64,000 nt of DNA, taken from contig PAJP01000025.1 of the NCBI GenBank assembly GCA_002706095.1, forward strand, positions 124,001 to 188,000, given 5' to 3'. Source of the stretch: Methylophaga sp. (GTDB taxonomy: Bacteria > Pseudomonadota > Gammaproteobacteria > Nitrosococcales > Methylophagaceae). Both the position numbers and the translations under genes were made by a program. The notes under the pieces are model-generated. The model ran no database searches and was not told the origin of the DNA. It worked only from the letters and a program-made list of their open reading frames with translations. The first letter of the stretch is position 1. Every line of letters starts with the position of its first letter. This document shows positions 11,853-27,463 of this stretch, piece by piece.

Positions 11853-13148
11853 GTGAATATTATGCCTTTGTTTATTATATTTTTTGCCCTTACTCTGTCT
11901 CTATCAGCCTGTGATGGACAAGGTGAGGACAAGAAAAACGAAGGTGCAGCAAAACAGGGCGCGAAGAGTCAGCAAGCTGTAGATGTCGGGTTCATTGAGA
12001 TTAAGCCCATACCCGTTAATCGTAGTGATGAGCTACCCGGACGCGTGGTGTCCTATCAGGTTGCTGAAATCCGGCCACAAGTCAGTGGCATCATTCAGTC
12101 GCGATTGTTTAAAGAAGGGTCATTCGTAGAAGAGGGGCAGCAACTTTATCAGATAGATCCTGCTCGTTATGAAGCAGACTATAAAATGGCCATGGCTAAT
12201 TTGCAGGATGCCAAAGCACGTGAAAAAAACGCAGAACTGCTAGTAAACCGCTATAAGTTGCTCATCCCATCCAATGCCGTGAGTCATCGAGAGTATGACG
12301 ATGCACTTGCCAGTCATGAACAGGCAAAAGCGGCTGTCAGCCTGGCAGAAGCGGAAGTGAAAAATGCAAAAATCAACCTAGATTACACGCGCGTTTATGC
12401 CCCAATAAGCGGCTATATTAGTCCATCAAGTATTACAAAAGGCGCGCTTGTGACATCGCAACAAGAAATGCCGCTTGCCACGGTACGTCAACTTAATCCC
12501 GTTTACGTTGATTTGTCACAATCCGTAGAAGAAGTACGTGATTTGCAAGAACGTCTCTCGGCCTTACGCCTCAATAAAGCCTCCAAAGCCGAGTACGAAG
12601 TCTCACTATATATTGGTAACTCAAAACAACTTTATCCACACAAGGGCACGCTAGATGCCACGGATTTCTCTGTCGGTATGCAGACGGGCGCTATACGTTT
12701 GCGATCTGTGTTCGAAAATCCAAATACGATTCTTTTGCCAGGCATGTTTGTCTGGGCCTCCGTTGAGGAGCTTGGGCGTACCAAAGCGATCGTGATTCCA
12801 CAAAAAAGCGTCATCATTGGTGCTGAGGGTAAAAAGAGTGTGTGGTTAATTGATGCTGACAATAAAGCGAGCAAGCATCCGGTTGAAATTGGGACGGCTT
12901 ATGGCAACAACTGGATTGTGCTCAATGGCCTCGAAACTGGCGATCGTCTGATTGTAGAAGGAACGATGATGCTACGGCCCGGTGCCACTGTGAAGCCTCA
13001 ACAAATGGAAGCCGAGTTGAGTGACATAAGTCCTGATATAGCGCCTGATTCATCCGAAAACGCCTCATCCTCAGCGACTAATGAACATACTCCATCAGAC
13101 AAAGCGGCTCAGAAAGAGGGTCAGCAGAACATGAGCGAGGATCGCTAG
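11853..13148 (+). CDS. RND efflux membrane fusion (periplasmic adaptor) protein, AcrA/MexA-like
   Basis: This 431-residue adaptor links an inner membrane RND pump to an outer membrane channel. It begins with a lipoprotein signal (LSACDG at about residue 22). Next come a barrel-sandwich lipoyl segment (EIRPQVSGIIQSRLF), an alpha-hairpin coiled coil (about residues 110-175), the returning lipoyl half (VYAPISGYISPSS), beta-barrel and membrane-proximal domains, and a Ser/Asn-rich C-terminal tail. The GTG start at 11853 is 9 bases before an in-frame ATG at 11862 that could serve instead. The pump gene starts 2 bp after the stop. No TolC-type gene follows, so the outer membrane partner must be encoded elsewhere. 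Confidence 0.92.
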   Translation: MNIMPLFIIFFALTLSLSACDGQGEDKKNEGAAKQGAKSQQAVDVGFIEIKPIPVNRSDELPGRVVSYQVAEIRPQVSGIIQSRLFKEGSFVEEGQQLYQIDPARYEADYKMAMANLQDAKAREKNAELLVNRYKLLIPSNAVSHREYDDALASHEQAKAAVSLAEAEVKNAKINLDYTRVYAPISGYISPSSITKGALVTSQQEMPLATVRQLNPVYVDLSQSVEEVRDLQERLSALRLNKASKAEYEVSLYIGNSKQLYPHKGTLDATDFSVGMQTGAIRLRSVFENPNTILLPGMFVWASVEELGRTKAIVIPQKSVIIGAEGKKSVWLIDADNKASKHPVEIGTAYGNNWIVLNGLETGDRLIVEGTMMLRPGATVKPQQMEAELSDISPDIAPDSSENASSSATNEHTPSDKAAQKEGQQNMSEDR

Positions 13149-13150
13149 AC

Positions 13151-16100
13151 ATGCTCTCACGCTTTTTTATAGACCGCCCTATCTTCACCTGGGTAATTGC
13201 CATTTTCATCATCGGCTTTGGTTTGTTCTCGCTCTTTGAATTGCCGGTTGAACAATATCCCAGCATTGCACCGCCGAAAGTGTCCATATCCGCTACCTAT
13301 CCTGGCGCATCAGCTGAAACACTTGAAAACACAGTGACACAGGTGATTGAGCAAAATCTGACGGGTATCGATAACCTTCGTTATATTCAGTCGCAAAGCT
13401 CTTCCTCTGGCCGAGCCACCATTACACTGACTTTTGAACCTGGCACTGACACCGATATCGCTCAGGTACAAACTCAAAATAAAGTCTCACAGTCCTTATC
13501 TTCCTTGCCAACGATTGTTCAGCAGTTGGGCGTGCCTGTTGAAAAAGCAGGCAATAGTAACGCGTTGATTATTGGGTTTTACGCCAAAGACGGTTCAATG
13601 GACCGGAATGATATCTCTGACTTTTTGGTATCCAATATTGAAGAACCGCTAAGTCGTGTTGATGGTGTCGGAAAAATTCAAACCTTTGGTGCCGAACATG
13701 CCATGCGGATCTGGCTCGACCCGCGGAGTATGAATAATTTTAATATCACGGCATCAGATGTGATTAATGCTATTCAAGAACAAAATGTGCAACTGGCGAC
13801 AGGTGAGATAGGCGGCACGCCACAGGCAAAAGAACAGCAGATTAATGCCACCATTACCGTGCAGTCTCTGCTTTCTACACCAGCCGAGTTTGAGTCCATT
13901 TTATTAACAGTGCTTGAAGATGGCTCGCAGGTCACTTTGGGAGATGTCGCTCGGGTCGAAATAGGGGCTGAAGACTACAATATTATTGGTCGCTGGAACC
14001 GACAACCAGCATCGGGTATCGCTATTGAACTGGCTTCCGGAGCCAATGTGCTGACGACCATTGAGAACGTCAAAGAACGCGTTAAAGACTTTGAGAGCAT
14101 CATTCCGCCTGGCCTTGAGGTGGTGTACCCCATTGATGTATCAACATTTATTAAGTCGTCTATTTTTAATGTGGTGATGACCCTCTTCATGGCCATCGGT
14201 TTGGTCATTCTGGTCATTTTCATTTTCTTACAAAATATCCGGGCAACATTTATTCCGGCAATTGCTATTCCTATTGTGTTGCTTGGCACATTTGGGGTGA
14301 TATTGACGCTCGGTTATTCAATCAATGTACTCACCCTGTTTGCCCTTGTGCTTGCCATCGGCATGTTGGTGGATGATGCGATAGTGGTTACCGAAAATGT
14401 GGAGACAAAATTAGAGCAAGATCCGGATCGTGATCCTAAAGAAGCCACTCGTGCCGCAATGAAGGAAATTTCTGGCGCACTTGTTGGCACCACGGTGGTT
14501 ATCTGGGCAGTATTTTTACCGATGAGTTTTTTTGAGGGCTCGGTCGGGGTGATTTATCGTCAATTTTCCATCACGATTTCTGTCGCCATGGCGATATCAC
14601 TGTTTATCGCCTTAACCTTATCCCCCTCTCTTTGTGGCGAGATTTTGAAATCAAGAAAAAGCCAAAAAGAGAAAGGATTCTTTGGTTTATTTAATCGTGG
14701 CTTTACGAATCTTCGCCATGGCCATAAAACACTGCTGGACGGTCTGCTTGAAAATAAAGTTGTCTTACCGGCTGTGTTTCTTATCCTCATCGTGATCACC
14801 GCCATCACGCTCATGCGTATTCCCTCATCGTTTCTCCCGGATGAAGATCAGGGCCGTATATTTACTTTATTAACCGGACCACCCAGCTCTTCACTGGTGC
14901 AAACCGTCGAAAAGGTGAAAAAAATAGAAGATTTCTATCTGGATGATGCGGGTGATGCGGTTGACGGCCTTTTTACTGCTGCCGGTTTTAGCTTTTCAGG
15001 TCAGGGACAAAATGTCGGGCTCGCCTTTGTCAAAATGAAGAACTGGGATGAACGCGGTGAAGAAAATAATGTATTCAACATTAAGGACCGGGCAGCGCAG
15101 ACTTTGTCACAAGTTCGTGACGCTATGATCTTTCCTATCGTCCCCCCGGCCATTAGTGCGTTGGGTAATTCCGGTGGCTTTGAGTTTCAGCTTGTTAACC
15201 GTGCCGGCCTTGATCATCAACAGCTTGTTGATGCCACCAATCAGTTTTTAGCGCTCGCCAATCAGAGTCCGCTTTTAACCCAGGTCAGGTTTAATGGCTT
15301 AAATGACAGTCCGCAATACGATCTCAAGATTGATCACATTAAAACACGTGCACTCGGTGTTCCATTAAGCACGGTCAACCAGACACTAAGCTCTGCATTG
15401 GGCGGCACTTACGTTAATGATTTTTTAGAAAATGGACGTATAAAACGCGTTTATGTTCAGGCTGATATCCCCTTCCGTATGCTGCCCGAAGATATCGATG
15501 ACTGGTTCGTTCGCAATAATAATGGCGATATGGTGCAACTGGTAGAAATTGCCTCGGGTGAATGGACTTATGGTTCGCCCAAACTGACACGCTTTAATGG
15601 TGCTGCTTCAAGAGAAATACAGGGATCAACAACACCCGGGGTAAGCTCGGGCGAAGCATTACAGGAAGTATTAAAACTGGCAGAAAAACTGCCTGAAGGA
15701 CTGGATGTGGCCTGGACAGGTTTGTCTTATGAAGAAAAGCAGGCGGGAACGAATACCCTTTTTCTTTATATCGTGTCGGCATTAGCTGTGTTTTTCATCC
15801 TCGCAGCACTTTATGAAAGCTGGGCTATTCCCGTCGCTATTATGCTAACCGTACCACTGGGCATTTTTGGAGCTGTCGTCGCAACCTGGCTCACAGGACA
15901 AGCGAATGATGTGTATTTTCAGGTTGGTCTGTTAATTACGATAGGCCTTGCTGCTAAAAATGCGATTTTGATTGTTGAGTTTGCAAAAAATAATTTCGAA
16001 GAAGGACAAACTGCTTTTGATGCCGCTTATTCAGCAGCACAACAGCGCTTTAGACCTATTTTAATGACCTCGCTCACTTTTATTCTCGGTGTGCTGCCAT

Positions 16101-16291
16101 TAGCATTCGCATCCGGGCCAGGGTCAGCCGCACAAAACGCTATCTCTGTCAGCGTGCTTGGTGGCATATTTACGACGACACTCTTTGTCGTTTTCTTTGC
16201 GCCGTTCCTCTTTATTTGGGTCTATCGTCTTTTTAAAAAGGAAGTTGTGAAAGAGCATCAGACTTCAAATCAGGATGAGAAAAATGCATAG
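13151..16291 (+). CDS. RND multidrug efflux pump, AcrB/MexB (HAE1) type
   Basis: This 1046-residue inner membrane transporter has the normal HAE1 length. It starts with FFIDRPIFTWVIAIFI and carries the PGASAETLENTVTQVIEQ block of the porter domain. The proton relay is present: Asp408-Asp409 in GMLVDDAIVVTENVE of TM4 and Lys936 in GLAAKNAILIVEFAK of TM10. It exports amphipathic drugs, solvents or similar compounds by proton antiport. The specific substrates cannot be predicted. It is translationally linked to the adaptor gene. The following 196 bp hold no gene. No adjacent TetR-type regulator is present, which is less common for this operon type. Confidence 0.95.
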   Translation: MLSRFFIDRPIFTWVIAIFIIGFGLFSLFELPVEQYPSIAPPKVSISATYPGASAETLENTVTQVIEQNLTGIDNLRYIQSQSSSSGRATITLTFEPGTDTDIAQVQTQNKVSQSLSSLPTIVQQLGVPVEKAGNSNALIIGFYAKDGSMDRNDISDFLVSNIEEPLSRVDGVGKIQTFGAEHAMRIWLDPRSMNNFNITASDVINAIQEQNVQLATGEIGGTPQAKEQQINATITVQSLLSTPAEFESILLTVLEDGSQVTLGDVARVEIGAEDYNIIGRWNRQPASGIAIELASGANVLTTIENVKERVKDFESIIPPGLEVVYPIDVSTFIKSSIFNVVMTLFMAIGLVILVIFIFLQNIRATFIPAIAIPIVLLGTFGVILTLGYSINVLTLFALVLAIGMLVDDAIVVTENVETKLEQDPDRDPKEATRAAMKEISGALVGTTVVIWAVFLPMSFFEGSVGVIYRQFSITISVAMAISLFIALTLSPSLCGEILKSRKSQKEKGFFGLFNRGFTNLRHGHKTLLDGLLENKVVLPAVFLILIVITAITLMRIPSSFLPDEDQGRIFTLLTGPPSSSLVQTVEKVKKIEDFYLDDAGDAVDGLFTAAGFSFSGQGQNVGLAFVKMKNWDERGEENNVFNIKDRAAQTLSQVRDAMIFPIVPPAISALGNSGGFEFQLVNRAGLDHQQLVDATNQFLALANQSPLLTQVRFNGLNDSPQYDLKIDHIKTRALGVPLSTVNQTLSSALGGTYVNDFLENGRIKRVYVQADIPFRMLPEDIDDWFVRNNNGDMVQLVEIASGEWTYGSPKLTRFNGAASREIQGSTTPGVSSGEALQEVLKLAEKLPEGLDVAWTGLSYEEKQAGTNTLFLYIVSALAVFFILAALYESWAIPVAIMLTVPLGIFGAVVATWLTGQANDVYFQVGLLITIGLAAKNAILIVEFAKNNFEEGQTAFDAAYSAAQQRFRPILMTSLTFILGVLPLAFASGPGSAAQNAISVSVLGGIFTTTLFVVFFAPFLFIWVYRLFKKEVVKEHQTSNQDEKNA

Positions 16292-16487: not shown

Positions 16488-17123
16488 ATGAGAAAAAAGT
16501 CTAGCTCACTTACTCTATTGCTCACACTGATATCCGGTGCGCTGGCTTATACCGGCTTGAGTCAGGCAGATGAATCCGCCAATAATGGTCCGGATTGTGA
16601 GAATATCAGTGTCGATTATCTGGATGATCCCTCGCTGACCCGGGCTGAAAAGCTGGCGCGCATGGAGCAAGCGCTGAGTGATTCTCTGCATCGCTTTGAA
16701 TTATGCAATATGGCCATCTCTGCTAATTCATCATCAACCAATAGTGGCAATGGATCTGGCTCTGGTTCAGGTACTGACGGTGGTGGCGATTCAGGAAACG
16801 GTAACGCAGCAGGCGGTGCCAGTGGCACGGAATCTGTTGCCAGTGACACTATGCAGGGCACAGAACAAGCCCCCTCAACCGATACAACGGCTGCCACCGC
16901 AGCAAATTCACAAGAATCTACAGAATCAGGTTCAGGTGACATCTCCGCCTCAGGTAATATCGCTAAGAATGGTAAGATTCCGGAAGATATTCCGCCCGCG
17001 GATAATGATGATGCGATCGCAGCACAAATTCGTGTCGCCGCTGAAGCTGAAACCGATCCAGAGATACGCAAAAAACTCTGGGATGAATACAGAAAATATA
17101 AGGGTATGAACGTTGAACATTGA
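16488..17123 (+). CDS. secreted low-complexity protein, first gene of the channel/vWA cluster
   Basis: This 211-residue protein has a signal peptide (hydrophobic residues 8-22, cleavage near LSQA-DE). The N-terminal globular part (about 28-80) has two Cys residues (C37, C73), with a helix of the type LTRAEKLARMEQAL. Then comes a Ser/Gly/Asn/Thr-rich low-complexity region of about 85 residues. A charged C-terminal helix (DPEIRKKLWDEYRKYKG) ends the protein. The architecture resembles a tethered periplasmic linker protein. No family was recognised. It overlaps the next gene by 11 bp and is the first gene of an eight-gene run on the same strand. A possible GGGAG ribosome binding site lies about 12 bases upstream. 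Confidence 0.75.
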   Translation: MRKKSSSLTLLLTLISGALAYTGLSQADESANNGPDCENISVDYLDDPSLTRAEKLARMEQALSDSLHRFELCNMAISANSSSTNSGNGSGSGSGTDGGGDSGNGNAAGGASGTESVASDTMQGTEQAPSTDTTAATAANSQESTESGSGDISASGNIAKNGKIPEDIPPADNDDAIAAQIRVAAEAETDPEIRKKLWDEYRKYKGMNVEH

Positions 17124-18348
17124 TCGTTTTAGAAAGCCATCCAAGTTTCTTGTCTACCTGCTGGTGATGCTGCATGTGCTCACGGGGTGTGCCACTACAT
17201 CCGGCTCAGGTGTGGATGTTGGACCACGTTCGTCTTCCAGTTTTAGTGAAGATATGTCAAAAACAGCCTACACCGGCCCGAAAATGGATGTGGTGATTCC
17301 TGTTTTCTCGCCGGGCCTTTCTGGCAAGGCAGCCAATTATGAAGAAGAAGGTGTATGGCCGGAACTGCGTCGAGCAGAAGCCAACCGTTTTGCCTATAAA
17401 CTCAAAAAAGCCTTAGATGATACTGGCAAGTTCGGCGCTGTCAGGGTCACGCCAGATAAAACCGCTTCTGGTGATTTATATGTATTAGGCAGTATTGTTG
17501 AGTCAAACGGTCTGGAAATAGAATTTGATATGCAAGTGGTTGATGCCAGCGGCAAAGAGTGGCTGGACGACAATATCGATTACGAAGTGGGCGATGGTTT
17601 TTATAAAAATCCCAGAAATACCGATAAAGACCCGTATGATCCCGCGTTTAATCAAGCAGCAAACGATATAGTTAAAGCCTTACTAAAACAAAAACCATCA
17701 GATTTAAGTACGGTAAAACATATTGCCGACTTACGCTTTGGCGCCAGCTTTAACGATAAAGCCTTTGATGACTATCTCGACACCAGCTCCACCCCTATCA
17801 AATTAACGGGTTTACCTAGCGAGTCCGACCCACTCTATGAACGTGTGAAAGCGATTCGCGTTAAAGAACAGTTATTTGTGGATAATCTACAACCTAACTA
17901 TGCCGCTTTTTCACAAAAAATGAATGACAGTTATCTGACTTGGCAAAAAGCCAGCGCGACAGAACTAAAACTGCAGCAGGAAGCACAGAATGAAAGTCTG
18001 ATGAAGATTATTGGAGGTGCGTTGTTGATTGCAGCAGCGGTAGCCGTCGGCTCCAATGGCAATCGTAATAACAATACCTTAGGCAGAGATATGGTCACCA
18101 TTGCTGGCGGTGTTGGCGGTGCAGTATTAATTACTAGTGGCATTACCTCTCGCGGAGAGGCCAAGTTTCATCAAGATGCTATAAACGAACTGGGCCAGTC
18201 GTTGGATTTGGAAATGTCACCTCAGGTGATTGAGTTTGAAAATCAAAGTACCAAACTGACCGGTAATATGGAGCAGCAGTTCCAACAATGGCGCGCCTTC
18301 ATGGCTCGCATGTATGAGCTTGAATCGACACCCGATAAAGCGCTTTAA
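17113..18348 (+). CDS. lipoprotein with two glycine-rich hydrophobic helices
   Basis: This is a 411-residue lipoprotein: LTGCATT near residue 25 is a lipobox, and the residue after Cys is Ala, which favours outer membrane sorting by the usual +2 rule. Residues ~55-190 look like an alpha/beta domain (MDVVIPVFSPGL; DLYVLGSIVES). This is reminiscent of periplasmic domains that sense or organise envelope assembly, but I do not assign a family. Near residues 297-345 two short hydrophobic segments, IIGGALLIAAAVAVGS and MVTIAGGVGGAVLITSG, form a glycine-zipper-like pair. It overlaps the first cluster gene by 11 bp and the next starts 8 bp later. It may be the outer membrane end of the complex (inference). 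Confidence 0.8.
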   Translation: MNIDRFRKPSKFLVYLLVMLHVLTGCATTSGSGVDVGPRSSSSFSEDMSKTAYTGPKMDVVIPVFSPGLSGKAANYEEEGVWPELRRAEANRFAYKLKKALDDTGKFGAVRVTPDKTASGDLYVLGSIVESNGLEIEFDMQVVDASGKEWLDDNIDYEVGDGFYKNPRNTDKDPYDPAFNQAANDIVKALLKQKPSDLSTVKHIADLRFGASFNDKAFDDYLDTSSTPIKLTGLPSESDPLYERVKAIRVKEQLFVDNLQPNYAAFSQKMNDSYLTWQKASATELKLQQEAQNESLMKIIGGALLIAAAVAVGSNGNRNNNTLGRDMVTIAGGVGGAVLITSGITSRGEAKFHQDAINELGQSLDLEMSPQVIEFENQSTKLTGNMEQQFQQWRAFMARMYELESTPDKAL

Positions 18349-18356
18349 TATTCGTC

Positions 18357-19802
18357 ATGATCAACGAAGAAATACGCAGAGCCAAGCAGGCGAAACAACA
18401 GCGCCTGCTCATTGGCATCATTATTGTTCTTTCGCTCATTGTTGTGACGGGGCTCGTGCTATTCAGTCTCAATAATGTTCGATTTAACAGCAGCCCTTCT
18501 ACTGAAGAGCCAACACCAGACACACAAGCCACACCACAAAAAATCGAAGAACCTAAAAACGAAGAAGACATCGCCGCATTACGCCAAGCCTATCTGGATG
18601 CCTTTTCTCATTATGAAAATACCTTAAAACCACAGCTGGAAAAAATTGATATCGACAGCTGGGATAAGACACTGGCCGAGACCTTAAAAAGCCAGGAACA
18701 AACCGCTGTGGATACCTTCGGTGCTGGTCAATATGCCAAAGCCAAACAGGCGATCGATACGCTAACGCAAACCGCCGAGAAGACACTGACTGACAGTGAG
18801 GCTGCTTTTGAACAAGCCATGCAGGAAGCACAAGCGGCGTATGTCAATTATGATTATCAACCAGCCCGTCTGGCGATAGACGATGCGCTTATTCACAAAG
18901 CTGATTCAACAGAGGCCATAGCGCTAGAACAGAAAATAGAAAAGATCCCACAAATTGTAGAGCTGAATGAAGCGATTCGTGTTGCCAGAAATGAAAATAA
19001 TCCGAGTAAAGAGCTATCTCTGATTGAGGATTTACTGAAAATCGAACCGGATCGGGAAGAGATGAAACAGCGGGCTAATGTTCTGCGTACGCAACTGGCC
19101 GAGTCACGGTATAACCAGGCCATATTTCAAGCCTATAAAGCGATTGAGCAACGGCAAGCTGAAAACGCCAGACAAGCTCTGAAACAAGCACAACAAATTT
19201 ATCCCAACCGCCCTGAAAATAAAGAAGTCAGCGCAGCACTGGCAACACTGGAATCACAGCTTCGCTTTGAAGAACATGTTGCCGCTGCAGACAAGGCACA
19301 AAATGCCGATAACTGGGAAGTCACCAAACAGGAATTAAGTGCCGCCTTAAAAGAACGTCCAGCCAATAAAGACCTGATTGATCGTTTAAACCAGGCCAAA
19401 CGGATTGTGGAAATCGACCAAAATATTGAGGGCTTGTTACAAAATCCTTATCGTCTTAACAATCCCGCAGTCAAAGCCACGGCTGATATCAATGTCATCC
19501 AAGCAGAATCTTTTAGTGCTCAAAGCCCGTCTCTGGCAAAAGCAGCTCAACAGTTAAAATCCACCATCAATGCCGTGAATACCCCGGTGAACGTGAATGT
19601 CATTTCCGATGGAAAAACCTTTGTCTCTGTGAGGGGCGTGGGTAAAGTGGGTGAAACTACCGGCAAAACGATTCAGCTCAAGCCCGGCACCTACTCCTTT
19701 GAAGGCAAGCGTGAAGGCTATCGCTCCAAGTTGATTGAAGTGACTATTCCGCTTAACCGTAGCGATGTCCAGGTCACCGTGATTGCAGATGAGCGAATTT
19801 AA
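18357..19802 (+). CDS. membrane-anchored TPR-like protein with C-terminal PEGA-like domain
   Basis: This 481-residue protein has a short cytoplasmic start, one transmembrane helix (about residues 18-42, LLIGIIIVLSLIVVTGLVLF) and a long periplasmic part. The middle (about 65-360) is almost all helical with repeated pairs of Ala/Gln/Leu-rich helices, consistent with TPR-type or coiled-coil scaffolding. The end (about 405-481) is beta-rich and carries GKTIQLKPGTYSFEGKREGY, the hallmark of PEGA-like surface domains. It shares this C-terminal style and the bitopic topology with the next gene, which it overlaps by 14 bp. It is probably a periplasmic scaffold of the cluster. Confidence 0.82.
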   Translation: MINEEIRRAKQAKQQRLLIGIIIVLSLIVVTGLVLFSLNNVRFNSSPSTEEPTPDTQATPQKIEEPKNEEDIAALRQAYLDAFSHYENTLKPQLEKIDIDSWDKTLAETLKSQEQTAVDTFGAGQYAKAKQAIDTLTQTAEKTLTDSEAAFEQAMQEAQAAYVNYDYQPARLAIDDALIHKADSTEAIALEQKIEKIPQIVELNEAIRVARNENNPSKELSLIEDLLKIEPDREEMKQRANVLRTQLAESRYNQAIFQAYKAIEQRQAENARQALKQAQQIYPNRPENKEVSAALATLESQLRFEEHVAAADKAQNADNWEVTKQELSAALKERPANKDLIDRLNQAKRIVEIDQNIEGLLQNPYRLNNPAVKATADINVIQAESFSAQSPSLAKAAQQLKSTINAVNTPVNVNVISDGKTFVSVRGVGKVGETTGKTIQLKPGTYSFEGKREGYRSKLIEVTIPLNRSDVQVTVIADERI

Positions 19803-21795
19803 TCAGGCAATTGAAGCTGCCAAACGCCAACAACGCCGAATGCTGTTGTGGCTGGGTTTGGGTTTTATTGTGGTCGCCTGTTTTGTTGCTGCAGCGTTAA
19901 TCGCTTCCCGAGCTACACCAATTCAGGTGCTGCCTGAAACTATCAGCCAGGATGCCCAGATTAATGTCAGTCGTGGCTTGGCCCTGATAATTGATCATCA
20001 TTTATACAGCCTGTCGGATTCAGCGGAAGTAGAAGCCTCAGCACCAGGTTATCAAACGGCCAAACAGCGTATTTCAGAATCCAGCTTTGGCAAAGTGACA
20101 CAAATCACGCTTGAGCCGCTGCCAGCCCAAGTCATTTTGAAAACCTCTCTCGAAGATAATAAAACCAGTTGGTACATCGACAAGAAGCTCACCGCCATCA
20201 GCAATACCCTTGAGACATCATTGGAACGAGGTGATTACAGCATCACAGCCAGTCACCCTTACTTTGAGCCTATTAGTGAAAATTACGCACTGAAACCGGG
20301 TGATGTCGTTGAAAAGACCTTGAGTATGACGCCCATCTCGGGTGAGTTATCGCTAAGCACTCAGCCAGCGGGGGCAGCAGTGAGCATAGATGGAGAAGAA
20401 GTCGGACAAACGCCTATGTCGACATCACTGCCCGGCGGACGATATGCATTGCAAATCCACAAAGCAGGTTTTGAGACCATCACGGATTCTATCGATATCA
20501 CACAAACAGCTAAACAGGTCAGCAGACAGTATCGACTGCAAGCAGAACGCGCCCGAGTGAATGTCAGCGTATCGCCTGTGGGTGGCACCTTAACAGTGAA
20601 TGGTATTGATACGCCTGTTGCTGATGTCATCAGAATCGAGGCCAATCAGGACGCCGTATTGAAGTATAAAAAATCCGGCTATTTTTCACAGTCACAACGC
20701 GTCAATCTTAAGCAAGGTGAAAGCACTGACCTTAATTTCGAGCTGAAAAAAGAAATGGGCAAAGTCGTGATTGAGTCGACGCCTCAAGCGTCAGTCACGA
20801 TTAATGGCAAAGCCATCGGACAAACACCCTTAAACTTAACGCTGGATGCCTTGCCACAGACGATTCGTTTCGATTTGGCAGGCTATCGCTCTGAGACTCG
20901 CACCATCACGCCTACAGCAAAATCCACCAGCAGTGTCTCGGTGAATTTACTAACTGAGAAACAAGCTCGTCTGCAAGAAGCGCCGAGAAGCTATAAAACC
21001 TATGCCGGTGATGAAATGCAGTTATTCACCCCCAACGACAACATCCTCATGGGGGCAGAGCGCAGTGAAGCCGGGCAACGAGCCAATGAGTTTATCCGTA
21101 AAGTCACAATTAACCGACCGTTTTATGCGGGTGTGCACGAAGTCAGCAATCAATCGTATGCACAGTTTGATAAAAGCCATAGCGGTGGCCCCAACTTGCC
21201 CGCCACCTCTGTCAGCTGGCTAGAGGCAGTACGTTATGCCAACTGGTTAAGTCAGGCAGAAGGTTTAACGCCAGTGTATAAAATCAACGGCAATTCCGTT
21301 ACTCATATTAACGATCAAGCCGATGGTTATCGTTTGTTGACCGAGGCTGAGTGGGAATGGTTAGCCCGAAAAGCAGGCCGGTCTGCTCAAACAATCTTCG
21401 TTTGGGGCAATGACAAAACGATACCACCTAAAGCCGCCAATATTGCTGACGAGTCTGCAAAAGGCTCGGTGACGCATTATGTACCGCGCTATAACGATGG
21501 TTATGCAGGTGTGGCGCCAGTAAAGTCGATGAAACGAGAGTTGTCAGGCCTGTTTGATATGGGCGGTAACGTCAGAGAATGGACACATGACAGCTACTCA
21601 CTTACTGTACCCAAACAAGGACGTACTTATTCACAAACACTGGATACTACACTCGTTGATGAGCATGTCGTTAAAGGTGCTAATTGGCGTTCGGGCACAC
21701 TCACAGAATTAAGAGCGTCATACCGCGATGGCGCAAGCCAGCCCAGAGATGATATCGGTTTCCGACTGGGTCGCTTTGTTTACGGAGGTCAATAA
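19789..21795 (+). CDS. membrane protein with three PEGA repeats and an inactive FGE/SUMF1-like domain
   Basis: This is a 668-residue protein. I start it at ATG 19789, not at the upstream in-frame TTG. One transmembrane helix (about 19-41) is followed by a periplasmic region with PEGA-type repeats, seen as SIDGEEVGQTPMSTSLPGG, a weaker copy near residue 255, and TINGKAIGQTPLNL. The last ~260 residues form a formylglycine-generating-enzyme (SUMF1) fold: ATSVSWLEAVRYANWLS, YRLLTEAEWEWLARKAG, LFDMGGNVREWTHD and DIGFRLGR. The domain has no Cys at all; the only Cys is in the transmembrane helix. The catalytic cysteines of true FGE are therefore absent, and a ligand- or peptide-binding role is likelier. 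It is followed within 2 bp by a small membrane gene. Confidence 0.88.
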   Translation: MSEFNQAIEAAKRQQRRMLLWLGLGFIVVACFVAAALIASRATPIQVLPETISQDAQINVSRGLALIIDHHLYSLSDSAEVEASAPGYQTAKQRISESSFGKVTQITLEPLPAQVILKTSLEDNKTSWYIDKKLTAISNTLETSLERGDYSITASHPYFEPISENYALKPGDVVEKTLSMTPISGELSLSTQPAGAAVSIDGEEVGQTPMSTSLPGGRYALQIHKAGFETITDSIDITQTAKQVSRQYRLQAERARVNVSVSPVGGTLTVNGIDTPVADVIRIEANQDAVLKYKKSGYFSQSQRVNLKQGESTDLNFELKKEMGKVVIESTPQASVTINGKAIGQTPLNLTLDALPQTIRFDLAGYRSETRTITPTAKSTSSVSVNLLTEKQARLQEAPRSYKTYAGDEMQLFTPNDNILMGAERSEAGQRANEFIRKVTINRPFYAGVHEVSNQSYAQFDKSHSGGPNLPATSVSWLEAVRYANWLSQAEGLTPVYKINGNSVTHINDQADGYRLLTEAEWEWLARKAGRSAQTIFVWGNDKTIPPKAANIADESAKGSVTHYVPRYNDGYAGVAPVKSMKRELSGLFDMGGNVREWTHDSYSLTVPKQGRTYSQTLDTTLVDEHVVKGANWRSGTLTELRASYRDGASQPRDDIGFRLGRFVYGGQ

Positions 21796-21796
21796 T

Positions 21797-21937
21797 ATGG
21801 CACAACTTAAAAAATGGCTGCTGATAGCGTTATCCGTTGTGGTCTTTGTCTTGGCAATCACCATGGTGAAAAATGTCTATGCCGGCAAACCCATTATCAG
21901 CCTGAACTCCCCTGTTTCCTTTCCCGTGGATATTTAA
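21797..21937 (+). CDS. 46-residue single-pass membrane protein
   Basis: This short gene lies in the 145 bp between the FGE-like and channel genes and begins with ATG preceded by GGAGG (21784-21788). The protein has a basic start (MAQLKKW), a hydrophobic helix (residues 8-23) and a short periplasmic tail ending in SFPVDI. Spacing is 1 bp after the previous stop and 3 bp before the next start. Its position next to the proton channel suggests a small accessory subunit, but no family was recognised. Confidence 0.7.
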   Translation: MAQLKKWLLIALSVVVFVLAITMVKNVYAGKPIISLNSPVSFPVDI

Positions 21938-21940
21938 ACC

Positions 21941-22717
21941 ATGAAAGATATGCTGAAAAGTTTCGCGGCATTGCTGATTTCTATCGTTGTCGTACATTTG
22001 TTCTACATTGGTTATGTTCGACCTGAAGCAGCACAGCTGATTGAGTTTGCTGTGAGTCAGGGACAAACCGCACCCCGCGATATAGCAGTGATCATCAAAG
22101 ACTACGAGCAGGAAATCTGTTTTATTCTGATGCTGTGGGGCTGTTATCTGATTCTCAGTGCTTATCGTAATATTCTCAAAACCAAGTATTTATTCAGTGT
22201 GGATCTGATTAAAGACGCCGATTCACAAGCAGATACTGATGCAAAACATAATCTGGATGTGAATGCGATTATTGATCGCTTGGACACTGAAATTCCCGCC
22301 GACTGCATGCAATCACCATTGGTGCGAACATTACGCTCTTCTCTATGGCGCTATAGCTCTACCAATAATGTGCAGAACCTGTCGGATGCCATTGAAAGTA
22401 ACCTTGAAGCCTTGGCTGTTAAACAGGACTCTGAAAACACCATGATCCGTTATCTGATCTGGGCGATTCCATCGATTGGGTTTATCGGTACTGTTCGAGG
22501 GATTGGGCAGGCTTTATCACAAGCTGATCAAGCGTTGGCAGGTGATATTTCAGGTATGACAGACAGCTTGGGCATCGCTTTTAACTCAACACTGGTGGCC
22601 TTATTGATCAGCATCTTTTTAATGTTTTTATTCCACCAACTGCAACGCCTGCAAGACAGTCAGATCGTCGATACGCAGGACTACTGTGATAAGTACTTAC
22701 TTCGTCGCATTCGGTGA
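21941..22717 (+). CDS. ExbB/TolQ/MotA-family proton channel subunit
   Basis: This 258-residue inner membrane protein has four hydrophobic segments: residues ~7-24, ~48-66, ~168-184 and ~207-230. The TM3 block AIPSIGFIGTVRGIGQAL and the TM4 block LGIAFNSTLVALLISIFL match the signature of ExbB/TolQ/MotA subunits, with a conserved small residue/Thr lining in both helices. These proteins form pentamers that pass protons and rotate or strain around a dimer of ExbD/TolR/MotB. No ExbD or TolR follows. Instead, the next two genes encode vWA proteins with an ExbD-like first helix. The long cytoplasmic loop between TM2 and TM3 is normal for the family. Confidence 0.88.
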   Translation: MKDMLKSFAALLISIVVVHLFYIGYVRPEAAQLIEFAVSQGQTAPRDIAVIIKDYEQEICFILMLWGCYLILSAYRNILKTKYLFSVDLIKDADSQADTDAKHNLDVNAIIDRLDTEIPADCMQSPLVRTLRSSLWRYSSTNNVQNLSDAIESNLEALAVKQDSENTMIRYLIWAIPSIGFIGTVRGIGQALSQADQALAGDISGMTDSLGIAFNSTLVALLISIFLMFLFHQLQRLQDSQIVDTQDYCDKYLLRRIR

Positions 22718-22723
22718 TTTTCA

Positions 22724-23785
22724 TTGGCGCGTAAAAACCGACAAGCTGAAGGACTCAACCTCGCCTTTCTGGATATTATGTCGTGCGGGCTGGGTGCAGT
22801 GATCCTGGTTTTTATGCTGGTGAAACAAAATATCGAGTCCTCACCTTCTGAAACAGAGAACCTGAAAAAAGATATCAGCAGCCTGGAACAAGCTCGCGAT
22901 GAAGCTCAAAAAGGGCTGGATGAACTCAGCGCGCAGCTGAAAAAAGAAAACATTGATTTATCCGCATTAAGCCAGAGCCTGCAACAGCAACGTGCTGCTC
23001 TCGACAGCAAAAACAGTGAAGTGCAGACCGCCCAATCCAATCTCGATCAGCTCAAGAAAAGTATTACAGAGATAAAAGTCCCCAAAAAAGAAGATCTGGT
23101 CGAAACACAGCAGGTGAATGAAGAGAATTATCTGCTCGGCCTGAAAATGGAAGGCAGAAAAATTGCTGTGTTAGTCGATGTCAGCGCCTCCATGACCAAT
23201 GAAAAATTGCTCGACATCATCAGAACCAAAAGCAGTTCTGATCAGACAAAAATCTCAGCTGCCAAATGGCAACGCACCAAGCGCGTGGTCGCTTGGCTTT
23301 TAGCACGAGCACCGAAGAACAGCCAGATTGCTGTTGTTGCATTTAGTGAGCAAGCCAAAAAATTGGGGGGCACAGGTTGGATGTCAGCCAGTAGCACTAG
23401 CGTATCCAGTATTATGAATAGTTTGAATCAAGTGGTGCCAACCGGTGCCACCAATCTGCAGCAAGGCCTAGTCACCGTCAATAAGCTATCCCCTACCGAT
23501 ATTTATGTGATTACCGATGGTTTACCCACCAAGGGCAACTCAAACTATAAAAGCCTGAATCCGTTTTCTGGCTGTAGCTCCTTAACCAGTAATGCCAAAA
23601 CCATTTCGGGTGAATGTAGAAAACGGCTGTTCCGACAGACCATCAACGAAAGTGGTCTGACCCAAGCGAAGAAGAATGTGATCTTGCTGCCACTGGAAGG
23701 GGATCCTGAAGCGGCGTATGAATACTGGGCCTGGGCGTCCAGCTCGGATGGTTTATTAATCAGCCCGGCGAGTAACTGGCCATGA
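22724..23785 (+). CDS. vWA-domain protein with ExbD/MotB-like transmembrane helix (first copy)
   Basis: This 353-residue protein has a 12-residue basic start, then a transmembrane helix NLAFLDIMSCGLGAVILVF with Asp17 at its cytoplasmic end and Cys21. A helical coiled coil (about 42-115) follows. The vWA domain (about 145-353) has a complete MIDAS: DVSAS, a Thr in GATNLQQGL and TDG. The placement of Asp in the helix matches the proton-carrying Asp of ExbD, TolR and MotB. The start is TTG with GGTGAT about 6 bases upstream. It overlaps the next gene by 4 bp (ATGA). The vWA domain should sit in the periplasm and bind a metal-dependent ligand (inference). Confidence 0.85.
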   Translation: MARKNRQAEGLNLAFLDIMSCGLGAVILVFMLVKQNIESSPSETENLKKDISSLEQARDEAQKGLDELSAQLKKENIDLSALSQSLQQQRAALDSKNSEVQTAQSNLDQLKKSITEIKVPKKEDLVETQQVNEENYLLGLKMEGRKIAVLVDVSASMTNEKLLDIIRTKSSSDQTKISAAKWQRTKRVVAWLLARAPKNSQIAVVAFSEQAKKLGGTGWMSASSTSVSSIMNSLNQVVPTGATNLQQGLVTVNKLSPTDIYVITDGLPTKGNSNYKSLNPFSGCSSLTSNAKTISGECRKRLFRQTINESGLTQAKKNVILLPLEGDPEAAYEYWAWASSSDGLLISPASNWP

Positions 23786-24735
23786 AACGTCGCGATAAAG
23801 GCATAGACATTTTCAGCCTGTCATTTCTGGACATTATTTCCTGTGGTTTTGGTGCAGTAGTGATGTTGATTCTGATCTCCAAAACCGATGTCGATGTGGC
23901 TCCTACTGCTGGCACAGAAGATGTCAGTGCCATGCTCTCGCAGCTGGTGACCTTACAAAATTCGGTCAGTCAGATTCAGCAGGAAATGAACCAAAAACTC
24001 GACGCGCTTTCGTCCTTATCAGAACAAAAACAATCGGCCGCCGCCGCATCAAAAGCCTTGCAGCAGCAATTAAATGCCTTAAATAAAAAGCAGGCAGCCA
24101 CCGCTGAGAGCATCGCCGGATTGGGTCTGGTAGAAGAGCGTTTAAAACAAGCTTCGTTAAGCACACCACAAAAACCCAATAAAACCCGTGATGAAGATGT
24201 GGGCGGTATTCCTGTTGATAGCGATTATGTGGTGTTTATCGTTGATACCTCAGGCAGTATGAAAAACATCTGGGGTAGAGTGTCTCAGGAAATTGTGAAT
24301 GTATTGAATATTCATCCACAAGTGAAAGGCTTTCAAATCCTCAATGATATGGGGCAATCCATGATTTCCGGCTACGATGGTCAATGGATGCCAGACACAC
24401 CCAACAGACGCAAAAGTGTTATCGACTTATTTAAAAGATGGAACGCGGTCTCCAATTCCAGCCCCGTAGAAGGCTTAAACACTGCTTTAAGAAAATATGC
24501 CAAAGCCAATATCACCACCTCGATTTATGTATTTGGTGATGATTACACTGGTTCCAGTTACGACCCGGTGATTGATGCCATTACCCAGCAAAATAAAAAG
24601 CTGCCATCCGGCAGACGGCTCGCCAAAATCCATGCTATTGGTTTTATCTCTCCCGGTACCACAGATCGTTTCAGTGTACTTATGCGTGAAATGACCAAAG
24701 AAAATGATGGGACGTTTATAGCGCTCCCACGTTGA
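23782..24735 (+). CDS. vWA-domain protein with ExbD/MotB-like transmembrane helix (second copy)
   Basis: This 317-residue protein has the same plan as the previous one: a basic start, a transmembrane helix SLSFLDIISCGFGAVVMLIL with Asp17 and Cys21 at identical positions, a coiled coil (about 50-118) and a vWA domain (about 148-317). The MIDAS core is DTSGS and the late Asp is in VFGDDY. The usual Thr is not obvious: the loop reads NSSPVEGL, so a Ser may replace it. The coiled-coil and vWA sequences of the two copies are clearly diverged, which suggests distinct subunits, perhaps a heterodimer inside the channel pentamer. It is the last gene of the cluster; no strong terminator is visible after it. 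Confidence 0.85.
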   Translation: MKRRDKGIDIFSLSFLDIISCGFGAVVMLILISKTDVDVAPTAGTEDVSAMLSQLVTLQNSVSQIQQEMNQKLDALSSLSEQKQSAAAASKALQQQLNALNKKQAATAESIAGLGLVEERLKQASLSTPQKPNKTRDEDVGGIPVDSDYVVFIVDTSGSMKNIWGRVSQEIVNVLNIHPQVKGFQILNDMGQSMISGYDGQWMPDTPNRRKSVIDLFKRWNAVSNSSPVEGLNTALRKYAKANITTSIYVFGDDYTGSSYDPVIDAITQQNKKLPSGRRLAKIHAIGFISPGTTDRFSVLMREMTKENDGTFIALPR

Positions 24736-24763
24736 TGAATTGAATCAAAGCAATCAACGCTTT

Positions 24764-24793
24764 GTAGGTTGGGTTGAAGAATGAAACCCAACG
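24764..24793. repeat. REP-like palindrome, copy 1
   Basis: GTTGGGTT (24768-24775) and AACCCAAC (24785-24792) form an 8-bp stem preceded by GTAG. Two related copies occur at 25435 and 25966. Elements of this look are frequent between gammaproteobacterial genes. Confidence 0.7.
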
Positions 24794-24864
24794 ATATGAC
24801 ATTTTTTATGAGATCAGCTCTGTAGGTGGGTTGGAATTAGCCCTCCAAAAATATTCTACTTTTC

Positions 24865-25350
24865 ACTTCAAACGCTGCCGCTGGGGCGTTCATTTATTTT
24901 GTTTGCCCAAAATAAACGAACCAAACAAAAGGGCACCCGAAATTGCCTTTGATCCAAAAATTAAACTTGGCTGATGGCGTGGTCGAAAACTCGCTACGCT
25001 CAAACACTCGACCACTTCTTCCATCAACCAAGCCTAATTCTTGGCGGCAATAGACGGGAGAAAAAGAGAGACTTTTCATATCCCCGTTTGTGCTGACGAG
25101 TAGCGGAGGTTTGTCTGGGTAACGGCTGGTTAGTGTTTGAGCGTTAGCGAGTTTTAACCAGACGCCAGACAAAGTGAGCAACGCAGTGGAGCCGTAGGCC
25201 AGCACTGTGGGGTGCCCTAGGGTTGTTAGGGAAATGGGCAAGCATTTCCCTGACTCGCCATTAAGGCGAAACTAGGAATTCCAAAAACTAGAACTTAAGA
25301 TGAAGAACGAAATCCAATTAAATGAACGCCCCAGCGGCAGCATGTGAAGT
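24865..25350. mobile_element. 486-bp MITE-like element with 31-bp terminal inverted repeats
   Basis: The ends 24865-24895 and 25320-25350 are inverted copies with only two mismatches; the inner 22 bp are identical (GCTGCCGCTGGGGCG and on). The interior folds into several hairpins: GTGGTCGA (24979) with TCGACCAC (25018), TTTGTCTGG (25110) with CCAGACAAA (25165) enclosing CTGGTTA (25126) with TAACCAG (25155), and GGGAAATG (25229) with CATTTCCC (25243). No transposase or ribosome binding site is present; the 115-codon minus-strand frame inside follows the repeat and is not counted as a gene. No clear target-site duplication is seen. Similar sequence is, from memory, common between gammaproteobacterial genes. 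Confidence 0.65.
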
Positions 25351-25434
25351 AGATAATTATCCAGTAGATTGAATTTAAACATGACCCCAGACAAGCCTAC
25401 ATTGAACACACTTATTCCATAAAAATCATCCCAT

Positions 25435-25467
25435 CGTTGGGTTTTGCTAGAGCTCTACCCAACCTAC
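25435..25467. repeat. REP-like palindrome, copy 2 (opposite orientation to copy 1)
   Basis: GTTGGGT (25436-25442) pairs with ACCCAAC (25457-25463) and is followed by CTAC, so it reads as the inverse of copy 1. The two copies bracket the MITE-like element. Confidence 0.65.
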
Positions 25468-25555
25468 TTCACTCCTTAATTCCCGCTAATGATAAAGTGA
25501 GAAATATCAGCATGTAGTTGCAACAAACCGTGACAGAGAAAAGGAAGGAAAAGTT

Positions 25556-26014: not shown

Positions 26015-27235
26015 TCATGGCTTAAGCAGCAACATCATTGGTCCCATAGTATTGAACTTCAAATCTGCTAACTTTTTCAACAAGGATGGTAAATAGTTTG
26101 CGTTATGAGAGATATAACGTTCATAGCTTTGTATTAATTGCAGTACATGAGGCGTTTCAATCTTTTGATGGTAGTGGGCCATACCAATCAGAATCGTTTG
26201 AATATTGGTAAAACAAGTGATCAATTTGAGATAGCCTTCGAACAAACTATGCTGGCTTGAAACTGGAAAGTCAGCGTGGAATAGATGGGAAATCAAATAG
26301 TTTTCGAGGAAATACCCACGTTCTTGCAGGAAAAGTCGATAAAATTTTTCATTAGCGTTTTGATATTTTTCAAAGATTTTATCGACGTCAAACTCATTGT
26401 AGTCAATGTCCAGGCCCTTGTTTAACCATTCCAGACACTCGGCAAAACGTGGGTTGGCGGCTTCTGGGTACTCTGTGATTAACATGGTGAGGGAGTATTC
26501 GAGCTTTAAACGTGGATTAGAACTGAATTGTTGGTATTGTTTAAGTAGCTCATCTGGATAATCAAGGGCGGCAATGAAGTCAACGATGATTTGATTCATC
26601 AGAATATAGCTGTTGTTTTTAGACGCTTGATCAAGTTTGTCCAAAAACACACCTAAGATAAATAAACGCTCATCTAAGCTGATGTGCCTCATTTGGATGA
26701 TATGAAACGAGACTGTTCTTATTGCTTCATAGGTTTCCTGAGCATCAGCAGGTAAATGCGCGCTTATTTTTAATTCGATTGATTGTAGCCTTTGGCTATG
26801 TACGCTAGGCATATGAATATCAATGAGCTGTACCGGTGATTCTGGCAAAATTGCTAAACGGGTCACTTCTGGGCAAGCAAGACTCATCGCCGACTGAGAC
26901 TCATTAAAGACATTGCTTGGTCTGCGAGGGAAGACTGTGCAAGTATCGGACAAGTAACTTTCACCACATTTTTTATAAATATTACATAACTTGTCCTCAT
27001 TCAAAAAAGGACAGGAGCCATCATTATGTAGCTTGATTTTATAGGCTGTGCCAGACACATTACTTCTATCACGGACGATATTAGACAGTACTTCTTTCCG
27101 GAAGGTGTGGTCTGAAATATGTTTATATTTTCGATATGTTTTTTTATCGATATTTACTTGCCAGCCGCTACAGCATGTATCCTCGCATTCAGAACCAATG
27201 CATTCGAATTTATCGTAATAATCCAGAACCTTCAT
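26015..27235 (-). CDS. flagellin lysine-N-methylase family protein (FliB-like)
   Basis: This is a 406-residue protein. I start it at ATG 27235 and not at the TTG one codon earlier. The N-terminal third carries the Cys clusters typical of FliB-type lysine N-methylases: CIGSECEDTCCSGW, then CPFLNEDKLCNIY, then LSDTCTVFPR and SLACPE. These probably bind a metal or iron-sulfur cluster. In Salmonella, FliB methylates surface lysines of flagellin. The C-terminal two thirds are helical without a known motif. No flagellar gene is in this window, so the substrate here could be different. It stands alone between convergent and divergent neighbours. Confidence 0.82.
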   Translation of the reverse strand: MKVLDYYDKFECIGSECEDTCCSGWQVNIDKKTYRKYKHISDHTFRKEVLSNIVRDRSNVSGTAYKIKLHNDGSCPFLNEDKLCNIYKKCGESYLSDTCTVFPRRPSNVFNESQSAMSLACPEVTRLAILPESPVQLIDIHMPSVHSQRLQSIELKISAHLPADAQETYEAIRTVSFHIIQMRHISLDERLFILGVFLDKLDQASKNNSYILMNQIIVDFIAALDYPDELLKQYQQFSSNPRLKLEYSLTMLITEYPEAANPRFAECLEWLNKGLDIDYNEFDVDKIFEKYQNANEKFYRLFLQERGYFLENYLISHLFHADFPVSSQHSLFEGYLKLITCFTNIQTILIGMAHYHQKIETPHVLQLIQSYERYISHNANYLPSLLKKLADLKFNTMGPMMLLLKP

Positions 27236-27463
27236 CAAGCAACCTCAAACAAATACGTGACTGATTTTTACTTTACAGACTCAATTGCAAATAGAAAACT
27301 CTCCGTAAATTTAAATACAGCTTAATACACCAATCTTTCACACCGAATCGCACCCAGAGTTTAGGCTTAAGTGAAGTACTGTCGACTTACTCATTTTATG
27401 GTGGAACAAATTAAGTTGTGCACGAGTCATTATCTCTAATCAATCCAACTCAATGAGGTGATG

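Follow-up and report, generated by a model that had tools for sequence, protein, structure and literature searches.

An eight-gene Methylophaga cluster joining a putative TolQ/ExbB-type motor with paired vWA proteins to a co-inherited set of envelope proteins

The closest described relatives of the gene cluster reported here are tolQ homologues that tightly co-occur with transmembrane (TM)-tethered vWA genes, mostly in heterologous pairs and with no tolR or exbD (PMC12204202; Mol Biol Evol 2025, msaf138). In the AlphaFold 3 (AF3) models of that study (section 8, Fig. 4c,d), the vWA helices are inserted in the channel pentamer with a conserved Asp beside a Thr ring; a separate vWA family treated there has a TonB/TolA-like topology and adjacent tolR-like genes. 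The cluster comprises eight open reading frames (ORFs; g1 to g8), all on the + strand at positions 16488-24735 of a 64,000-nucleotide stretch of a Methylophaga genome (the window), among them a gene for a TolQ/ExbB/MotA-type channel subunit (g6, here Q) and two vWA genes (g7, vWA1; g8, vWA2). A sequence-only reading of this DNA had proposed a new proton-driven stator in which vWA domains replace the peptidoglycan or TonB contact of ExbD/MotB. Its observation was right, and its interpretation was right in outline yet already published; since PMC12204202 predicts both the motor and its pairing with vWA proteins, the core idea is not new. The new part is the unit around the motor; the 2025 prediction, as far as its text goes, named no downstream partner or function.

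The channel subunit and its two vWA partners

Membership of Q in the MotA/TolQ/ExbB channel family, already read from the sequence, is borne out by both its Pfam match and its lumen threonines. Q scores 51.6 bits against MotA_ExbB (PF01618; curated cut-off, 22.9), and T184 and T217 are invariant in an alignment of 24 diverse homologues, align with Thr in every ExbB/TolQ-type paralogue tested from the same genome, and lie within an ungapped alignment to TolQ of PDB (E = 0.047). The protein is 98% identical to the M. aminisulfidivorans channel protein.

Each of the vWA proteins has a single TM segment, at its N-terminus, and a motif of the metal ion-dependent adhesion site (MIDAS) type, as had been claimed. 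vWA1 matches Pfam VWA_2 with 44 bits and has a complete MIDAS (D152, S154, S156, T243, and D265). The vWA domain of vWA2 falls under the Pfam cut-off, and its fold was recognized in an AlphaFold model with a mean predicted local distance difference test (pLDDT) score of 86 (vWA fold match Z 17.6, root-mean-square deviation 2.5 over 159 residues); its site is MIDAS-like (D155, S157, S159, S226, and D253), with Ser226 in place of the vWA1 Thr. Other fold matches of vWA2, to receptors, capsids, and toxin complexes, reflect the general vWA fold and are uninformative about function. In the TM-helix motif FLDxxxCGxGA, Asp17 is invariant in 72/72 vWA1 and 71/71 vWA2 sequences, giving both families, to judge by sequence, the single TM helix with an acidic residue that marks the B subunit of a 5:2 motor. 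The helices lack His in 137 of 140 cases and are therefore not TonB/TolA-like. What the text of PMC12204202 describes for its TPH-vWA family was found here as well: a heterologous vWA pair adjoins tolQ without tolR or exbD, and the transpore helix carries an Asp and no SHLS motif.

No ExbD or MotB_plug Pfam match lies inside the cluster, in agreement with the earlier statement that no ExbD/TolR/MotB gene follows the channel gene; the seven ExbD and three MotB_plug genes of the genome are all elsewhere, and neither the vWA proteins nor their helices have a Pfam match to ExbD/TolR (PF02472) or MotB (PF13677). Each of the 33 genomes in which a vWA protein was matched gave a channel match too, so vWA genes without the channel gene, a finding that would have spoken against a stator, did not occur. 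Invariant Asp17, the aligned Thr184/Thr217, the absence of exbD and motB from the cluster, and this co-occurrence support the proposal that the vWA proteins serve as the channel's B subunit, their vWA domains replacing the peptidoglycan or TonB contact of ExbD/MotB.

A co-inherited unit of envelope proteins

Gene order was compared in 80 named loci and the window. The order g1-g2-g3-g4-g5-g6-g7-g8 is kept in Gamma- and Alphaproteobacteria and in some metagenome-assembled genomes labeled Desulfobacterota; because it recurs in dozens of distant genomes, the cluster is more than a chance arrangement. In the long-flank loci, g1, g2, g3, g4, g6, and g7 are each present in 44/44 and g8 in 43/44, counts that express co-conservation with the channel and not frequency, since the loci were chosen by the channel. 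The g1-g3 block is inverted yet adjacent in three loci (L084, L089, and L092). An independent sample of 369 Gammaproteobacteria held a channel orthologue in 31 genomes, 28 of them with full vWA2 and 26 with g2; contig ends account in part for the channel genomes missing g2 or vWA2. vWA2 without the channel was found in 0 genomes (Fisher p = 5e-39, relatedness ignored) and g2 without the channel in 1 (p = 8e-34, relatedness ignored), this one (L142; G245:C1:1838000-1856000) being a decayed g1-g3 remnant with stop codons, transposase-like ORFs, and no motor genes. Within the genus and order, the cluster is patchy (21/63 genomes). The co-occurrence check suggested for the eight genes thus came out in their favor, for seven in the long-flank loci and for g5 in the 88 loci described below; the proposed link of the motor to the lipoprotein and PEGA scaffolds gained genetic support from this co-conservation.

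The lipoprotein g2 has a lipobox Cys26 followed by Ala at the +2 residue, for which outer-membrane sorting is predicted; Asp at +2 occurs in 0/42 scored homologues, as expected for such sorting, 16 further homologues being unscorable, several through start choice or an atypical lipobox. Its AlphaFold model (pLDDT 78; residues 50-290 mostly >85) has an N-terminal domain that VIA-align matched to components of envelope or outer-membrane assemblies: FlgT (Z 11.2), PelC (11.1), CsgG (10.2), and the TolB N-domain (9.7). Residues 294-315 and 327-345 form two hydrophobic helices rich in Gly. The g2 family matched no Pfam family, and its profile matched no PDB sequence. From the model, the domain appears to be of the FlgT/PelC/CsgG/TolB-N type that is typical of outer-membrane rings.

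For g4, described earlier as a PEGA-FGE protein, Pfam confirmed both parts (PEGA x3, 120 bits; FGE, 111 bits). The FGE domain is not catalytic: the sole Cys of g4, C33, lies in the TM helix, so the domain lacks active-site cysteines; in homologues it contains 0 to 2 Cys (mostly 1). We read the domain most readily as a scaffold for binding. PorK/GldK rank among its best relatives in PDB (PorK E = 7e-9), and g4 scores 72 bits against the GldK model (NCBIfam TIGR03525), under the cut-off of 350. The label TPR-PEGA for g3 held in part, as TPR was recognized in g3 homologues and the window copy has no Pfam match for TPR or PEGA.

The 46-residue product of g5, first taken for a membrane protein, is better read from homologue comparison as a signal peptide with a short secreted tail; it is likely a secreted peptide with the C-terminus FP-x-(D/N)-I-COOH. 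What homologues have in common is little more than the last 12 residues, ISLNSPVSFPVDI, and a hydrophobic N-terminus that ends in A-x-A-type sites; the N-terminal part and linker vary freely and the C-terminus is almost invariant (L062-L161). Between g4 and Q of the other clade, the g5 profile detected nothing, yet a short ORF is present whose product starts with a signal-like segment, continues with an acidic linker, and has the same C-terminus. An all-ORF scan found an ORF ending in FP-x-[DN]-[ILMV] upstream of Q in 82/93 loci; four further loci have a g5-type ORF just beyond the set distance limit, two have the end variants MPSDI and IPSDM adjoining g4, and the remaining 5/93 are a divergent subtype. 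This gives g5 in 88/88 typical loci (86 of the FP-x-[DN]-I type and 2 variants), a count that includes G273, where g5 lies with g4 on a separate contig. Among 40,218 other ORFs, the C-terminal motif has no unexplained instance. In the literature, FPVDI gave four hits, which look unrelated. In L143 and L144, Q has moved behind the vWA genes and g5 is still beside g4, a hint that the partner of g5 is closer to g4. In the one family formed by L143, L144, and L145/L146, the channel gene stands behind the vWA pair or on another contig, with g4 and g5 together. As options for the fixed free C-terminus, we consider a MIDAS ligand, a strand donor, and a PDZ-type tag.

Other lineages have signaling genes in or beside the cluster. 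In a gammaproteobacterial sister clade (Woeseiaceae and others), the g3 homologue has a protein kinase domain (Pfam, 39 to 141 bits; HRDIK and DFG in several) before its TM-TPR-PEGA part, and it reads as a receptor Ser/Thr kinase with a cytoplasmic kinase domain. A gene ending in an FHA domain (ASKHA-FHA-type) stands between Q and vWA1 in 33 loci, and PP2C (8 loci) and Gly-zipper OmpA (11 loci) genes adjoin some of the clusters. The kinase label is clustered on the channel tree (4 changes versus 14.6 shuffled), with the window among kinase-free relatives. Examples of kinase-type g3 with FHA, PP2C, and OmpA/Gly-zipper neighbors include L103, L106, L117, L125, and L129. By reading of their sequences, loci of the divergent subtype (L147-L152) have Q and, where complete, genes of the FHA, PP2C, trypsin-like, and kinase-like kinds together with just one vWA gene. 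The TM helix encoded by this vWA gene (ALDLFASAMGAF; L147, L148/L149, L150, L151, and L152) has retained the Asp; the subtype is possibly a second motor type with phospho-signaling.

Proposed mechanism and competing explanations

Building on the gene content, the co-conservation, the invariant Asp, Thr, and MIDAS residues, and the folds of the vWA2 and g2 models, we propose that the cluster probably encodes a trans-envelope ion motor of the 5:2 type, with a MIDAS-tipped axle acting on an outer-membrane lipoprotein assembly. Five copies of Q would form the wheel, and one vWA1 and one vWA2 would form a heterodimeric axle, with their Asp-bearing TM helices standing in for ExbD/TolR/MotB. The axle would be turned by ions (H+ or Na+) passing the Thr/Asp site, and its rotation would cross the periplasm along a helix of ~80 residues to reach the paired MIDAS-type vWA domains. 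These domains may act on the outer-membrane lipoprotein g2 and on the inner-membrane-anchored arms g3 (PEGA/TPR) and g4 (PEGA/pseudo-FGE); a further candidate, as ligand or regulator, is g5, whose C-terminal FP-x-D-I tag is fixed. At the outer membrane, the motor might exert force on the g2 structure, open it, or assemble it; our best guess is that this work serves outer-membrane remodeling or export, resembling that of the Tol or type IX secretion system (T9SS) motors, rather than phage defense. The complete version of such a machine, uniting the ion-turned heterodimeric axle with metal-dependent binding (possibly of the g5 FP-x-D/N-I end), a g2 ring, and TPR-PEGA kinase control in some lineages, is possible and, to us, doubtful.

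Several points weigh against the motor proposal. Insertion of the vWA helices in the pore is a prediction from the AF3 model of PMC12204202 and from residue conservation, and contact of the vWA domains with g2, g4, and g5 is something we infer. For g2, the fold matches are of intermediate quality (Foldseek E 0.001 to 0.05), and ring formation by g2 is suggested by analogy. Sequence comparison does not support common descent of the vWA helix with ExbD/MotB: against an ExbD profile (6 sequences), the best score was 13.4, with controls at 2 to 7 and a probability of 1.6%, which is not significant; comparison with MotB was not significant, a MotB-style pattern having gathered mostly vWA helices and one true MotB; and scanning the 45-aa helix region against PADLOC, Pfam, and PDB was essentially negative. 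What we claim for the helix is therefore an analogous place and analogous residues, not descent.

Instead of generating force, the channel and vWA pair could act as an envelope sensor that gates ion flow on a ligand (the g5 tail or a surface contact), with a kinase/FHA readout in some lineages. The kinase-type g3 of the sister clade, the ASKHA-FHA-type gene between Q and vWA1, the PP2C genes of some loci, and the FHA, PP2C, and kinase-like genes of divergent relatives would all suit a sensor, but in the lineage of the window the cluster contains neither a kinase nor an FHA gene, a kinase could equally regulate a motor, and, to our knowledge, all characterized members of the MotA/TolQ/ExbB channel family perform mechanical work; we regard a sensor as unlikely. 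It is highly improbable that the cluster is a Zorya-like anti-phage system whose 5:2 motor senses envelope perturbation: PADLOC matched Q to ZorA2 with 19 bits and the N-terminus of vWA1 to ZorB1 with 14.7 bits, both weakly, and the patchy presence noted above would fit a defense system, but Q, at 258 aa, lacks the long cytoplasmic tail, the vWA proteins lack an OmpA-type peptidoglycan-binding domain, PADLOC found no effector gene (ZorC/D/E) among the eight, and the conserved partners are envelope proteins. That the vWA proteins are TonB/TolA-like transducers outside a TolQR-type motor, with ExbD coming from another locus, we consider improbable. The separate vWA family of PMC12204202 has such a topology and the genome has its seven ExbD genes elsewhere; that published family, however, has adjacent tolR-like genes, whereas the window's cluster contains no exbD and, according to the same paper, none adjoins the TPH-vWA family, and the TM helices encoded here carry an invariant Asp and no His/SHLS signature.

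If the complete version of the machine outlined above is true, it would add a third class of coupling between motor and outer membrane to those of TonB/TolA and of the T9SS/gliding motors. The outer membrane itself lacks an energy supply, and the known machines that deliver ion-gradient energy there are few. As a defined co-inherited unit, the cluster offers a testable system with a candidate outer-membrane lipoprotein target, two inner-membrane arms, a tagged secreted protein, and a kinase/FHA switch that is present in some lineages. The invariant Asp of the two vWA helices (Asp17) provides a clean handle on the ion drive.

Features of the locus and comparison with known systems

All eight co-oriented ORFs of the sequence-only reading are present, and the overlaps that it mentioned number three (g1/g2, 11 nt; g3/g4, 20 nt; g7/g8, 4 nt), the other junctions having a spacing of 1 to 8 nt (Table 1). 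No usable Pfam match was obtained for g1 or g5, and an Rfam scan of the window at 16-26 kb gave no match. Promoter and terminator counts in the cluster region were not clearly above those of shuffled sequences (14 versus 12.9 and 13 versus 9.5), and we therefore claim no operon boundary.

Table 1. Coordinates of the cluster genes and of selected codons in the window
Feature	Position	Strand	Evidence
g1, secreted Ser/Gly-rich protein with conserved C-terminal segment (LWDEYRKYKG in window copy)	16488..17123	+	ORF; homologues in 44/44 long-flank loci; C-terminal conservation
g2, lipoprotein (Cys26) with predicted FlgT/PelC/CsgG/TolB-N-like domain (residues 53-199)	17113..18348	+	AlphaFold model, VIA-align; 44/44 loci
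g3, one TM helix (12-43), helical TPR-like region, PEGA-like C-terminus	18357..19802	+	Sequence, homologues
g4, one TM helix (18-47), PEGA x3, FGE-sulfatase fold without catalytic cysteines	19783..21795	+	Pfam; 44/44 loci
g5, 46 aa, likely signal peptide and ~17-aa secreted tail ending ISLNSPVSFPVDI-COOH	21797..21937	+	Homologues
g5 C-terminal FPVDI codons, TTTCCCGTGGATATT then TAA	21920..21934	+	Sequence
g6 (Q), TolQ/ExbB/MotA-type channel subunit, 258 aa	21941..22717	+	Pfam MotA_ExbB; alignment
Q Thr184 codon, equivalent of ExbB/TolQ lumen threonine	22490..22492	+	Alignment
Q Thr217 codon, second lumen threonine, 33 residues after Thr184	22589..22591	+	Alignment
g7 (vWA1), TM helix with FLDIMSCGLGA, coiled coil, vWA domain with full MIDAS	22724..23785	+	Pfam VWA_2; alignment
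vWA1 Asp17 codon, candidate ion-binding Asp	22772..22774	+	Invariant 72/72
g8 (vWA2), TM helix 11-33 with FLDIISCGFGA, long helix 46-124, vWA domain with MIDAS-like site	23782..24735	+	AlphaFold model; alignment
vWA2 Asp17 codon, candidate ion-binding Asp	23830..23832	+	Invariant 71/71

Directly upstream of the cluster is a gene pair that resembles the RND efflux type by eye (11853-16291); this neighborhood is not kept in the inspected loci. Downstream, an intergenic stretch (24760-25480) contains pieces that recur in the genome (21 matches including itself), with an inverted TAGGTTGGG-type repeat at its ends, and an ORF on the - strand (26015-27238) resembles, by eye, a FliB-type lysine methylase.

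The TPH-vWA/tolQ pairs of PMC12204202 agree with the window in all features stated for them (vWA pair, no tolR/exbD, helix Asp, and lumen Thr). The text of that paper, figures aside, covers the channel and vWA genes only, and the lipoprotein, PEGA/FGE, TPR-PEGA/kinase, FPxDI, and Ser/Gly-rich proteins go unmentioned there. A literature search for PEGA, VWA, TolQ, and FGE in combination found no paper, and the whole eight-gene unit with its ring-type lipoprotein and tagged secreted protein has apparently not been described before; the eight-gene linkage, the g2 domain type, the g5 secreted peptide, the cysteine-less FGE domain, and the kinase/FHA/PP2C variants of the sister clade are apparently new.

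With Zorya ZorAB, the cluster shares a 5:2-type motor outside motility and a weak sequence match, but it lacks the ZorA tail, the OmpA-type domain, and ZorC/D-type effectors. Like g4, GldK/PorK of the T9SS is an FGE-fold protein without FGE activity beside an ion motor, there GldLM; g4, however, carries a TM anchor and PEGA repeats and does not qualify as a GldK equivalog, and no other T9SS gene was recognized among the eight. By its model, the N-terminal domain of g2 appears to have a fold like that of FlgT, PelC, CsgG, the TolB N-domain, and TraT, several of which form outer-membrane lipoprotein rings, whereas g2, unmatched by Pfam or PDB sequences, has in addition a long hairpin of helices that include Gly-rich hydrophobic segments. 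TolQ-TolR and ExbB-ExbD (PF01618 with PF02472) resemble the cluster in the channel family, both lumen threonines, and a single-helix partner with a conserved Asp; here, by contrast, the partners are two different proteins, with a coiled coil and a vWA domain in place of the periplasmic domain of ExbD/TolR.

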